The notes beneath the pieces were generated by a model that worked only from the letters and a program-made list of their open reading frames with translations, made no database searches and was not told where the DNA came from. A DNA stretch of 64,000 nucleotides from an uncultured Cytophagales bacterium. GTDB lineage: Bacteria > Bacteroidota > Bacteroidia > Cytophagales > Cyclobacteriaceae. The position numbers and the translations under genes are program-made. The DNA is taken from positions 62,001 through 126,000 of the forward strand of contig CAJXNP010000002.1 of assembly GCA_913057175.1 (NCBI GenBank), read 5' to 3'. Below, in pieces: positions 665 through 3,276 of this stretch (position 1 is the first letter of the stretch; each line of letters opens with the position of its first letter).

Positions 665-989
665 CCTAATAGCAAAATGACCTTTAGAGGCTCCGTTTCA
701 AAATTACCCTAAAAAAATAGTATTTTCCGATACAAACTTGGAGATAGACTTTCCCATCCCCAACAAAAACCCTCAACCATTCATACAAATCGTTGGGGTG
801 GTGACTGGAAATAAAAATCGTTAAGCTGCCGGCTAGACGATCCCCAGCATTTTCAGGCATTGAGGTTTTTCTTCCAATACAATGCGAAATATGGAAACAA
901 AATGACTCATCCGTTTTAATAAATGACCTTTGGATTTTAACCCTCCAAGGGTTTCGAACCCTTGGAGGGTTGTGTTAAGCGGTTCGATC
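665..989. other. Non-coding stretch with one strong palindrome
   Basis: About 325 bp without a convincing gene. A 60-codon minus-strand frame (833-1015) crosses it, but that frame runs through the palindrome at 939-971 and overlaps the 3-prime end of the HU-like gene, so I do not call it. The stretch holds no tRNA-like or terminator-like structure apart from that palindrome. Confidence 0.5.
939..971. repeat. Palindromic repeat, copy 1 (15-bp perfect stem, 3-nt loop)
   Basis: The left arm AACCCTCCAAGGGTT (939-953) is the exact reverse complement of the right arm AACCCTTGGAGGGTT (957-971), with loop TCG. No T-run follows on either strand, so it does not look like an intrinsic terminator. A second copy of the same design lies at 1666-1694, with one compensatory pair change. 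It is likely an interspersed palindromic element of the REP type. Confidence 0.85.
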
Positions 990-1382
990 TTATGATTTGG
1001 AATTTGTTCTTTCAAAAGAAATATCTTTGACTTTACTTTTCATTTTCTTTGATGGAAGGAACCTGATCTTCACATTTCTGATTTTGGATTCATCTACATC
1101 CATTTTCGTATCCGAGCCCTCAGCCGAAGCCGACAGGTAAAAAGATCCCATAGAGCCAAACTCTACCCTTCTTCCCTGGAGCAACTGCCGGGGAACCAAC
1201 CTAAAAAATGATTCTAATACAGCTAGAACATCAGGTGGATTTACGGTAGAATAGTCTGTGATCAGATCGACCATTTGATCCAGGTCAACGGTTTCGGTTT
1301 TCGTTAGGAGAGGATAAAATTTTGCAGGAAGGTTTGTATCACCGGGGTCTACACGGTTTACAATTTTATATTTTACTGGCAT
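990..1382 (-). CDS. HU-like DNA-binding protein, Bacteroidota type
   Basis: A 130-residue protein starting MPVKYKIVNRVDPG, the usual opening of the Bacteroidota HU/IHF-like family; I prefer this Met to the one two codons upstream. The first half (about residues 1-60) fits the helical part of the HU fold. GRRVEFGSMGSFYLSASAEG (about 73-92) matches the beta region that in HU carries the G-x-G-x-F core, and the tail is basic (LPSKKMKSKVKD). Members of this family are thought to bind DNA as architectural proteins, often near mobile or polysaccharide loci. It lies between two related palindromes (939-971 and 1666-1694), which may be coincidence or may be its binding sites. A classical HU gene also exists at 27.5 kb, so this is a divergent paralogue. 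Confidence 0.75.
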   Translation of the reverse strand: MPVKYKIVNRVDPGDTNLPAKFYPLLTKTETVDLDQMVDLITDYSTVNPPDVLAVLESFFRLVPRQLLQGRRVEFGSMGSFYLSASAEGSDTKMDVDESKIRNVKIRFLPSKKMKSKVKDISFERTNSKS

Positions 1383-1583
1383 GATCATAAAAATTTAAGT
1401 GAAAAAAATATTTAAAACTCACAGGCCGGATCTTAGATAAAGAATTTGCATTATCCGGTTATAAGAATCAACGGCGGTTTTCATTCCACAGATTTCAATA
1501 AAGGGTGGTGAAATCCTAAAAAATGTTAAATGGGCTCTATTTCGACAAGATCAACGCAACAAATCATACGGTTCAAATAAAAT

Positions 1584-1643
1584 TGTCTTGCCCAACAGAT
1601 CAAAATGTGCTGGGCAGGAAATTTAAATGTCTCGCCCAAGAGA
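1584..1643. repeat. Near-direct repeat overlapping a stem-loop
   Basis: TGTCTTGCCCAACAGA (1584-1599) recurs as TGTCTCGCCCAAGAGA (1628-1643), 14 of 16 bases identical. The first copy can also fold with TGCTGGGCAGG (1608-1618) into an 11-pair stem with two G-U pairs. Purpose unknown. Confidence 0.6.
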
Positions 1644-1665
1644 ATTAGATTAGCTGATTATAAAA

Positions 1666-1694
1666 CCCTCCAGGGGTTCGGAACCCCTGGAGGG
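1666..1694. repeat. Palindromic repeat, copy 2 (13-bp perfect stem, 3-nt loop)
   Basis: CCCTCCAGGGGTT (1666-1678) pairs with AACCCCTGGAGGG (1682-1694), loop CGG. Compared with copy 1 at 941-969, stem position 8 is G instead of A and its partner is C instead of T, so pairing is kept. No T-run follows. Confidence 0.85.
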
Positions 1695-2417: not shown

Positions 2418-3212
2418 ATGAAAAAGTTTACCACAATCATGGCGATCATGCTTATAGTATGCATGATTTCCAACCAATCAGTTGCACAAGATGAGGAAGC
2501 CAAACCTCAAATGCTGTTGATCCACACAGATCATGTCTTGCCCTCTGCTGCTTCGGACTACGAAGAAACCGCAAAAAACCTAAGCACCCTTTTAAAGGAA
2601 AATAGCATTCAGGATTTAGAATATTTTGCTTTTACACAATCGGATGGAGATTATTTGTATGTGAATTTCATTGAAAGCTTTGCAGACCTTGATAAAAATC
2701 CTTTTGATGCCCTGAAAGAAAAATTAAGCGACGATGAATGGGAAAACATCTGGAAGGGATTTAATGATGCCTATCTGTCTCATTCAGATAAAATTGTCTA
2801 TTATCATCCTGGCTTGTCTTACAAAGCTGAAAAGCTTCAGGAAGGTGACAATAGTTATCGGGTTTGGTTTTTTTGCTACTTCGAGGAGAAACATTGGGAC
2901 GCCGTCAAGTCAGTATCAAACAAATGGGTAGAGCTATATGAAAAATACAACATAGAGTCCGGCTATACGACGTATACCAGTGGTTTTGGATTTGATGGAC
3001 CCTTCATTGTCTTTCACATGTGGGCAAAAAGTCCGGTAGATTTTTATACCCAGGAACAAAATACATGGAAAACTACAGGTGAAGACGGTAAAAAATTGTG
3101 GGAAGAAACAGCACAATATTTTTACAAAACTGAAAAAATTGATGGCTGGTTCAGACCAGATCTATCCTATATAATGGAAACAGAAGAAATTGCTGATGCA
3201 GATAACGAATAA
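2418..3212 (+). CDS. Secreted two-domain protein, dimeric alpha/beta-barrel-like
   Basis: A 264-residue protein with a signal peptide (MKKFTTIMAIMLIVCMISNQ, likely cleaved at about residue 23-24). The mature part appears to be two tandem copies of one fold, about residues 30-120 and 135-235. Each contains an opening beta strand (MLLIHTDHVLP; YRVWFFCYFEEK), a long amphipathic helix (YEETAKNLSTLLKEN; WDAVKSVSNKWVELYEKYN) and a later strand (GDYLYVNFIES; GPFIVFHMWAKS). This layout resembles a fused ABM/EthD-type ferredoxin-like barrel. Such folds often bind small hydrophobic molecules, but no catalytic residue stands out, so no reaction is assigned. The C-terminus is acidic. It is expected in the periplasm and appears monocistronic. 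Confidence 0.7.
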   Translation: MKKFTTIMAIMLIVCMISNQSVAQDEEAKPQMLLIHTDHVLPSAASDYEETAKNLSTLLKENSIQDLEYFAFTQSDGDYLYVNFIESFADLDKNPFDALKEKLSDDEWENIWKGFNDAYLSHSDKIVYYHPGLSYKAEKLQEGDNSYRVWFFCYFEEKHWDAVKSVSNKWVELYEKYNIESGYTTYTSGFGFDGPFIVFHMWAKSPVDFYTQEQNTWKTTGEDGKKLWEETAQYFYKTEKIDGWFRPDLSYIMETEEIADADNE

Positions 3213-3235
3213 TTACTTTTAAACTTTTGACTTGG

Positions 3236-3276
3236 TATATCCTGAGTAATTTCATTTTGAAAATATTCAGGATATA
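3236..3276. repeat. Inverted repeat downstream of the secreted protein gene
   Basis: TATATCCTGA (3236-3245) is the exact reverse complement of TCAGGATATA (3267-3276), with an AT-rich interior that can pair further. It lies 24 bp after the stop at 3212 and is followed by a T-rich stretch interrupted by GC, so it may be a weak terminator. Confidence 0.5.

Follow-up and report, generated by a model that had tools for sequence, protein, structure and literature searches.

A patchy family of 33-nt palindromes in Bacteroidota and Balneolota: probable REP-like mobile elements associated with RAYT-type nucleases

Results

The palindromes of the window and the gene between them

The window, by which we mean the whole 64,000-nucleotide stretch of DNA that was analyzed, comes from an uncultured Cytophagales bacterium and contains two copies of a 33-nt palindrome, one on each side of a gene of the HU-HIG family (Table 1). 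A sequence-only reading of this DNA had placed the first copy exactly and had given the second as 1666-1694, which is the inner 29 nt of the 33-nt unit; the gene that it had called HU-like is indeed a member of the HU-HIG family. The second outermost pair of copy 2 is broken. The 29-nt cores of the two copies differ in a single stem pair, which is A-T in copy 1 and G-C in copy 2, so the compensatory base change that the same reading had pointed out is present, and the loops differ as well (TCG and CGG). On its own, a single compensated pair is weak evidence of selection, and it is the data from the whole family, described below, that carry the case.

A search of the 64-kb window for the core with up to 3 mismatches returned these 2 matches, and 0 were obtained in 100 dinucleotide shuffles. 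A detector for palindromes of the form 15+3+15 found 2 in the window, both of them the copies described here, and 1 in 200 kb of other DNA from the same genome. The calculated DNA fold energies are -16.8 kcal/mol (z -7.2) for copy 1 and -16.2 kcal/mol (z -6.3) for copy 2. Neither copy is followed by a T-run on either strand, as had been noticed from the sequence, and an Rfam search of positions 800-1900 of the window (E-value mode) produced 8 weak matches, none of them near the gathering score of its family.

Table 1. Positions of the palindromes and the HU-HIG gene in the window, and of the RAYT-profile matches elsewhere in the same genome (C, contig)
Feature	Position	Strand	Description
33-nt palindrome copy 1	939-971; arms 939-953 and 957-971; loop 954-956 (TCG)	.	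15/15 pairs, 100% complementary
33-nt palindrome copy 2	1664-1696; arms 1664-1678 and 1682-1696; loop 1679-1681 (CGG)	.	14/15 pairs
HU-HIG family gene, 132 aa	990-1388	-	Pfam PF18291, E 4.7e-29; stop 18 nt from copy 1
Own-genome RAYT match 1	C1:518427-518981		No clear hairpin
Own-genome RAYT match 2	C23:14201 (hairpin at L034 1444-1476)		Different 33-nt hairpin, AGTCGTGGCACCACT (AGTCGT...ACGACT), in frame in the gene
Own-genome RAYT match 3	C3		Weak

Copies in the same genome and in other genomes

The assembly to which the window belongs measures 6.62 Mb in 40 contigs and is 98.7% complete. A pattern search identified 11 copies in it at ≤3 mismatches, 6 of them with 0 mismatches, and the reversed pattern, used as a control, gave 0 matches; a pattern with fixed AACCC/GGGTT blocks recovers only 3 of the copies. 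With ORFs defined by length only, no ORF of ≥80 aa contains any of the nine copies located elsewhere than in the window, and seven of the nine lie ≤22 nt from a gene stop, with one overlapping the stop.

Scanning the genomes of 84,980 species for the exact core returned at least 116 stretches. Among the matches listed, 115 of 116 loci belong to Bacteroidota or Balneolota, distributed over Cytophagales (80), Balneolales (12), Chitinophagales (9), Sphingobacteriales (5), Saprospirales (4), Flavobacteriales (1) and other Bacteroidota (4), and the remaining 1 belongs to Terriglobia. The Terriglobia match (L105) is probably not a member of the family because it has a 2-nt loop and unpaired flanks; it was kept in pooled copy counts given below, those of gene positions and of T-runs among them. 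Copies at ≤2 mismatches were present in 12 of 117 genomes near that of the window, its own included. Among 20 genomes reached through the exact scan, 17 have copies at ≤3 mismatches, with a maximum of 23 per genome, and 14 of 395 genomes sampled from the phylum match a stricter pattern. The 33-nt family is patchy and of low copy number. The genome search proposed by the sequence-only reading, which had two copies in hand, thus gives more than two, with 11 in the same genome and further copies in relatives. We did not find the 33-nt family in the open literature; some such hairpins could be among those tabulated in the supplement of PMC6006769.

Unit, covariation and nested symmetry

The consensus of the family is AACCCTCCARGGGTT-YNR-AACCCYTGGAGGGTT, 33 nt in length. 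The four outer pairs beyond the searched core are Watson-Crick paired in 128, 133, 124 and 122 of 137 distinct copies with a 3-nt loop, and one step past the last pair the pairing drops from 122 to 28 of the 137 copies, so that the unit can be defined as 33 nt. Because the exact-core scan forces pairing within the core, covariation was judged only on the four outer pairs and on the rows with mismatches. The first outer pair occurs in the 137 copies as C-G (100), T-A (23), G-C (4) and A-T (1), and its 128 paired copies compare with a mean of 85.3 and a maximum of 99 in 2,000 shuffles; at the outermost pair (122/137) the pairing is not above that of the shuffles because the letters there are so constant. 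Among the matches listed, 25 of the 34 rows with two mismatches are compensatory, where 0.49 were expected; one and the same change, C-G to T-A, accounts for 14 of these 25, and a single genome (G085) supplies 10 of the 34 rows, all compensatory, the count without it being 15 of 24. Covariation, which had been proposed as a check on the two window copies, is in this way found in the family, both in the mismatch rows and in the first outer pair.

The stem position that differs between the two window copies is A-T in 144 of 150 copies, G-C in 2 (one of which is the Terriglobia match) and one-sided (G-T or A-C) in 4, so that intermediates of the A-T/G-C change exist. Of 137 copies, 129 have a Y-N-R loop, and the two ends of the loop do not covary. 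Sequence, beyond pairing alone, is conserved across orders, and the element ends in AACC...GGTT in most of the 137 aligned copies, with no GT[AG]G foot.

Within the element, the 15-nt arms are near-palindromes in their own right, each of the form 6-3-6. For 17 distinct arms (23 typed arms after merging those ≤2 differences apart), a set in which some arms are related and which therefore counts as fewer than 17 independent cases, an average of 4.76 of 6 pairs are formed, compared with 1.61 in letter shuffles and 2.95 in half-swaps (maximum 4.00 in 20,000); with the axis of the arm shifted, 22-31% are paired, compared with 79% on the true axis. As read from the letters, the build of the element is [6-3-6]-3-[6-3-6], and each arm of the unit may act as a REP. 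A REPIN is an inverted pair of REPs. Like a REPIN, the 33-nt unit contains a small imperfect palindrome twice in opposite orientations (the two arms of 15 nt, 6-3-6); it differs from a REPIN in that only 3 nt separate the two small palindromes.

Position relative to genes

The fetched loci contain 143 copies, of which 100 are intergenic, 28 are in ORFs and 15 are at locus edges; since ORFs were called by length only, some of the ORFs counted as holding a copy are spurious or shadow ORFs. By comparison, 84.8% of random positions taken in these loci are inside ORFs. The intergenic location that had been suggested as a further check thus applies to 100 of the 143 copies. The intergenic copies are found in convergent (37), tandem (51) and divergent (12) gaps, and the corresponding values for random positions are 1.9, 7.0 and 3.5%. 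Where a copy adjoins a gene stop, the stop is ≤30 nt away in 69 of 88 cases (median 12 nt). Runs of T≥5 within 12 nt occur on 21 of 300 copy sides (7.0%) vs 3.2% of control stretches taken 60-300 nt beyond each copy, a twofold, small excess.

The nearness to stop codons, the preference for convergent gaps, the strong stem and this excess of T-runs would all suit transcription terminators or mRNA 3'-end stabilizers, that is, RNA hairpins under selection at gene ends. However, the same 3'-end bias and gene distribution are described for REPs in PMC3733652, a T-run is missing from most copies and from the two in the window, some copies lie in frame within long ORFs and others within RAYT genes, and the sequence itself, beyond its pairing, has been kept across orders. 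We consider such a role an unlikely explanation of the family, and the statement of the sequence-only reading that the two palindromes are not ordinary terminators agrees with the family-wide counts.

Occupied and empty sites

A gene with THUMP-like and PG_1098 domains is matched in every one of 40 genomes from the genus of Algoriphagus aquaeductus. In an alignment covering 30 of them, the insert is present in frame and at full length in 6 (decayed in one of the 6); in 20 others exactly 33 nt are missing, and in the remaining 4 the insert is shorter by 18 nt, two of these reading as a single 15-nt arm (L297 and L309). The difference between occupied and empty sites is the 33-nt unit, which indicates that no target base was duplicated at this gene. 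The short inserts of L297 and L309 look as if the hairpin had collapsed in frame. A second gene (L126) has the hairpin in 1 of 30 aligned sequences; this site is not clean because it differs from most empty sites by ~45 nt, rather than by 33, in a stretch of variable length, and we do not count it as support for insertion. As to the target-site duplication that marks MITEs, the two sites give different pictures, with none at the first gene and about 12 additional nt at the second. In other long ORFs (L120, L123, L153, L166, L104 and L060/L110/L150) the same hairpin encodes the in-frame peptides TLQGFETLGG, PSKGxxPLEG and KLSKGxxPLES.

RAYT genes that carry the hairpin in relatives

RAYTs were found by clustering 874 ORFs located around palindrome copies, which gave one cluster of 8 ORFs, all of them beside or over a palindrome. 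A plain search for the HUH and Y motifs matches 6 of the 8; the L119 sequence is truncated downstream of the insert, and in L063 the Y region is interrupted. The palindrome of these relatives lies in the HUH/Y1 nuclease gene in 7 of the 8, in frame after the HUH motif and encoding TLQGFxTLGGF or a near form, and only beside it in the eighth (L085), just after the stop. Its location between HUH and Y is seen in 5 of the 8 by the plain motif search and in L063 by alignment with the interrupted Y region. In Cytophaga aurantiaca the hairpin occurs three times in succession: ahead of the RAYT gene, within it and behind it.

The AlphaFold model of the L130 RAYT (40 rows, pLDDT 92.4, pTM 0.88) is least sure at residues 81-90 (mean 58) and dips again at 91-100 (79); the residues encoded by the hairpin are 86-96, between predicted helices 69-78 and 95-118. 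The solved structure closest to the model is 4er8, the E. coli RAYT in complex with a REP hairpin (E 1.6e-8; TM 0.58 by query, 0.74 by target), and 4er8 also ranks first by sequence (E 4e-7). The NCBIfam model REP_Tyr_transpos matches 6 of 6 scanned RAYTs with a best E of 5.6e-18, all at ≤65 bits where the cut-off is 80, and none of the 6 is over the cut-off of Pfam Y1_Tnp (PF01797), the C. aurantiaca RAYT (22.9 bits) being at its border; the hairpin insert, by splitting the domain, may account for the low Y1_Tnp scores. Residues W94, Q95, E100, H101 and R104 of 4er8, which PMC6006769 ties to the reading of GTAG in the E. coli RAYT, align to F, I, R, K and T of the RAYT profile, and Q at the second guide position is present in some RAYTs of the wider set (e.g. 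GSLFQ). The motif YIHNNP is present in L070, L073, L130 and L132, YIHKNP in L085 and YIHLNP in L102, and SS is present in all six.

RAYTs and palindromes across genomes

The genome of the window has three RAYT-profile matches (Table 1), and the CCCTCCA hairpin was not found in or beside them. With no RAYT of its own found to carry this hairpin, the simplest view is that the 11 copies are relics or that an enzyme acting in trans has moved them. The window copies look orphaned, and the cognate RAYT of which they may be relics would have been lost since or would never have been resident. The RAYT-type transposase that the sequence-only reading had suggested looking for was thus found together with the hairpin in relatives and not in the genome itself. 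A relative of the AGTCGTGGCACCACT hairpin of the second RAYT match occurs at L018 8055, which makes a second 33-nt family in the same genome.

RAYT-profile matches (E ≤ 1e-10) were obtained in 42 of the 117 genomes, that is, in 6 of 12 palindrome-positive vs 36 of 105 palindrome-negative genomes, a weak coupling. Only four (G117, G119, G121 and G124) of 17 palindrome-bearing genomes were found to have a RAYT that carries or adjoins this hairpin; the RAYT of G118 is flanked by a near copy, G135 has a variant hairpin and G129 a flipped-arm form. For 60 RAYT-like loci selected by protein match, in a set in which some genomes had been reached via the palindrome scan, the density of 33-nt palindromes is 0.425 per kb at ≤450 bp from the gene vs 0.060 per kb in the rest of these loci, and 20 of the 60 have a 33-nt hairpin within 450 bp of the gene.

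The family could also have been moved in trans by another enzyme, such as the ~155-aa IS200-like Y1_Tnp proteins that are common in these genomes. Many copy-bearing genomes have no RAYT found to carry the hairpin, and some Y1_Tnp match occurred in 15 of 15 genomes tested; both observations speak for this explanation. Pfam Y1_Tnp (PF01797) was tried as a route to the transposase and rejected: none of the 40 loci fetched (10 from the same genome and 30 from relatives) has the CCCTCCA hairpin, and several have different hairpins on both sides. The 30 loci from relatives stand within a survey of 98 matches, in which the 68 outside the fetched set include the hairpin-bearing C. aurantiaca RAYT (G117:C2) at the border of the cut-off. 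Movement by such an enzyme seems improbable to us.

Other hairpin types

Many RAYTs carry a different 33-nt hairpin of the same build in or beside the gene, and many others carry none. The types include AGACCTGACAGGTTT, AACCCTTTCAGGGTT, AACGCAGACAGGGTT, AACCCTATCAGGGTT, ACTCGGAGTGCGACT and AGTAACGAGGTTACT, among others, and the AGACCTGACAGGTTT hairpin is present in 23 of the 117 genomes with up to 32 copies. The type of hairpin tracks the RAYT tree only loosely, in that sister RAYTs of the main clade can differ (L208 beside L102) and that, in a clade of 9 RAYTs that includes both own-genome RAYTs in the tree, the 4 with hairpins have the AGT-, ACT- and AGG-types; in this tree 20 of 57 inner branches have a support <80, and the hairpin's own columns were left in.

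Several further arrangements were observed. At L198 (545-2712) a 149-aa Y1_Tnp gene lies amid about a dozen short hairpins, mostly GGAATGGCCTAAAGGCCAATCC, which is a different hairpin system. HUH-type ORFs ringed by several GTCCAGCTTCTGGAGAAGCAGGAC-like hairpins are present in L126 (near 2726-3271), L271 and L281. At L235, L247 and L266, palindromes of the AACCTTTGAGGTC and GACCTTTGGGGTT kind, most of which have longer loops, flank the RAYTs and may represent a third build. A flipped-arm form, AACCCTTGGAGGGTT...AACCCTCCAAGGGTT, occurs beside a RAYT at L263 1370-1402 in a Saprospiraceae genome.

HU-HIG genes near the copies

At C2:422511 (L010 4609-5042) an own-genome copy lies 11 nt after the stop of a second HU-HIG gene, which gives two HU-HIG neighbors among the 11 own-genome copies and is suggestive at most. 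A single-sequence search of the 874 ORFs around copies found one other clear HU-like gene, that of L010, and one weak match. Among 8 genes scanned beside own-genome copies outside the window (a set that does not include the neighbors at L009 and L012), 1 is an HU-HIG gene and the other 7 are a GDSL lipase, a DUF7133/cytochrome c protein, a DJ-1/PfpI protein, an AraC-type protein, AtuA, a lipid A acyltransferase and an AsnC-type protein. An HU-HIG search of 264 kb of the genome gave the window gene itself as the strong match, plus one weak match. With few HU-like genes among the 874 ORFs and 1 of 8 among the own-genome neighbors, HU-HIG as a recurrent partner was rejected, and the HU-HIG gene of the window looks like a bystander of the palindromes. 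The proposal of the sequence-only reading that the HU-like product could bind the palindromes, which would then be operator sites for a DNA-binding protein such as HU-HIG, has in its favor the short distances from copy 1 and from the L010 copy to an HU-HIG stop, but it is highly improbable given the unrelated kinds of the other neighbors and the scarcity of HU-like genes around copies, and it leaves the hairpins inside RAYT genes unexplained.

Discussion

Copy number, dispersal, position at gene ends, covariation, the link with RAYTs and the 33-nt difference between sites together point to a REP-like mobile palindrome. We consider it likely that the palindromes belong to a 33-nt family of non-autonomous mobile elements, REP-like in kind, that spread as single-stranded hairpins by means of a RAYT-type HUH/Y1 nuclease. 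The sequence-only reading had offered a mobile palindromic family as one possibility, and the 11 copies, their intergenic bias, the covariation, the RAYTs with the hairpin in relatives and the one clean occupied/empty site bear it out. As to how the element would move, the hairpin would be exposed as a single strand, probably during replication; the RAYT-type HUH/Y1 nuclease would bind it and cut it at the foot, and the unit of 33 nt would then be joined into a new site without further bases, as at the one clean site, mostly just past a stop codon. Recognition, cutting and movement of the 33-nt hairpin by the RAYT, and the single-strand route, are what the arrangement of genes and hairpins suggests.

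The element resembles the REP/RAYT systems of the E. coli type (REPtrons) in being a short dispersed palindrome found near gene 3' ends and in or beside an HUH/Y1 nuclease gene, and the RAYT model of the relatives has the E. coli structure 4er8 as its best match. It differs from E. coli-type REPs in being a 33-nt unit without a GT[AG]G foot, with a symmetric 15-bp stem that has no bulge and with ≤23 copies per genome among those searched, and its RAYTs differ in the five GTAG-reading residues given above. The GTAG is described as essential for the E. coli enzyme and its change as better tolerated by two others, and the three enzymes compared there for their mechanism all have GTAG-tagged REPs (PMC8266576). 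Since the RAYT profile is without the GTAG-reading residues and the hairpins are without a GTAG foot, another guide must be used, for which the conserved AA/TT ends or the mini-hairpins may be candidates.

Other parallels are found among the subclasses of TnpA_REP described in PMC6006769. Subclass 2.4 (RAYT group 4) shares the REP in frame between HUH and Y and the motif YIxNNP (PMC6006769), whereas its REPs are described there as having GT[AG]G, some of them being double-footed, and the 33-nt unit ends in AA..TT with no such foot. Subclass 2.6 (RAYT group 5) is presented in PMC6006769 as found mostly in Bacteroidetes, with YIH[QN]NP in several members, a C-terminal SS and no GT[AG]G. The RAYTs studied here agree with this in part, YIHNNP being present in four of the six named above and YIHKNP or YIHLNP in the other two. 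The hairpins of subclass 2.6 are described in PMC6006769 as weaker, whereas the 33-nt stems are perfect or nearly so (z -7.2), the insertion within the gene is described in the same source as unique to 2.4, and the hosts of the 33-nt family include Balneolota. The RPEs and intragenic REPs of Rickettsia are also palindromes in frame within ORFs (PMC3733652), but they are described as having GTAG or CGTC tags (CGTC in the RPEs; PMC3733652), and neither is present at the ends of the 33-nt unit.

Tentatively, we suggest a wider reading, which we regard as possible and somewhat less likely than its opposite, in which the 33-nt hairpins belong to a Bacteroidota-wide superfamily of strand-symmetric [6-3-6]-3-[6-3-6] elements. 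Two fused mini-hairpins would take the place of the GTAG guide, with a RAYT dimer binding either the mini-hairpins or the long hairpin from either strand; the length of 11 codons would allow in-frame landing, and the loss of GTAG would have gone along with a joint change in the hairpin and the guide-contact residues. If this were true, the RAYT gene would carry its own substrate and host proteins would gain 11-residue tags.

This group of RAYTs bears on how RAYTs choose and move REPs. Its hairpins are symmetric, GTAG-free and often located in frame in the RAYT's own gene, and every such genome thus offers an enzyme together with its matching substrate, which makes recognition directly testable. 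The in-frame inserts of 33 nt, which can be mapped onto a species tree, show the entry of mobile palindromes into proteins and their decay. For genome annotation, the family accounts for recurrent 11-residue stretches (TLQGFxTLGGF, PSKGxxPLEG) and for RAYTs that fall under the Pfam Y1_Tnp cut-off.
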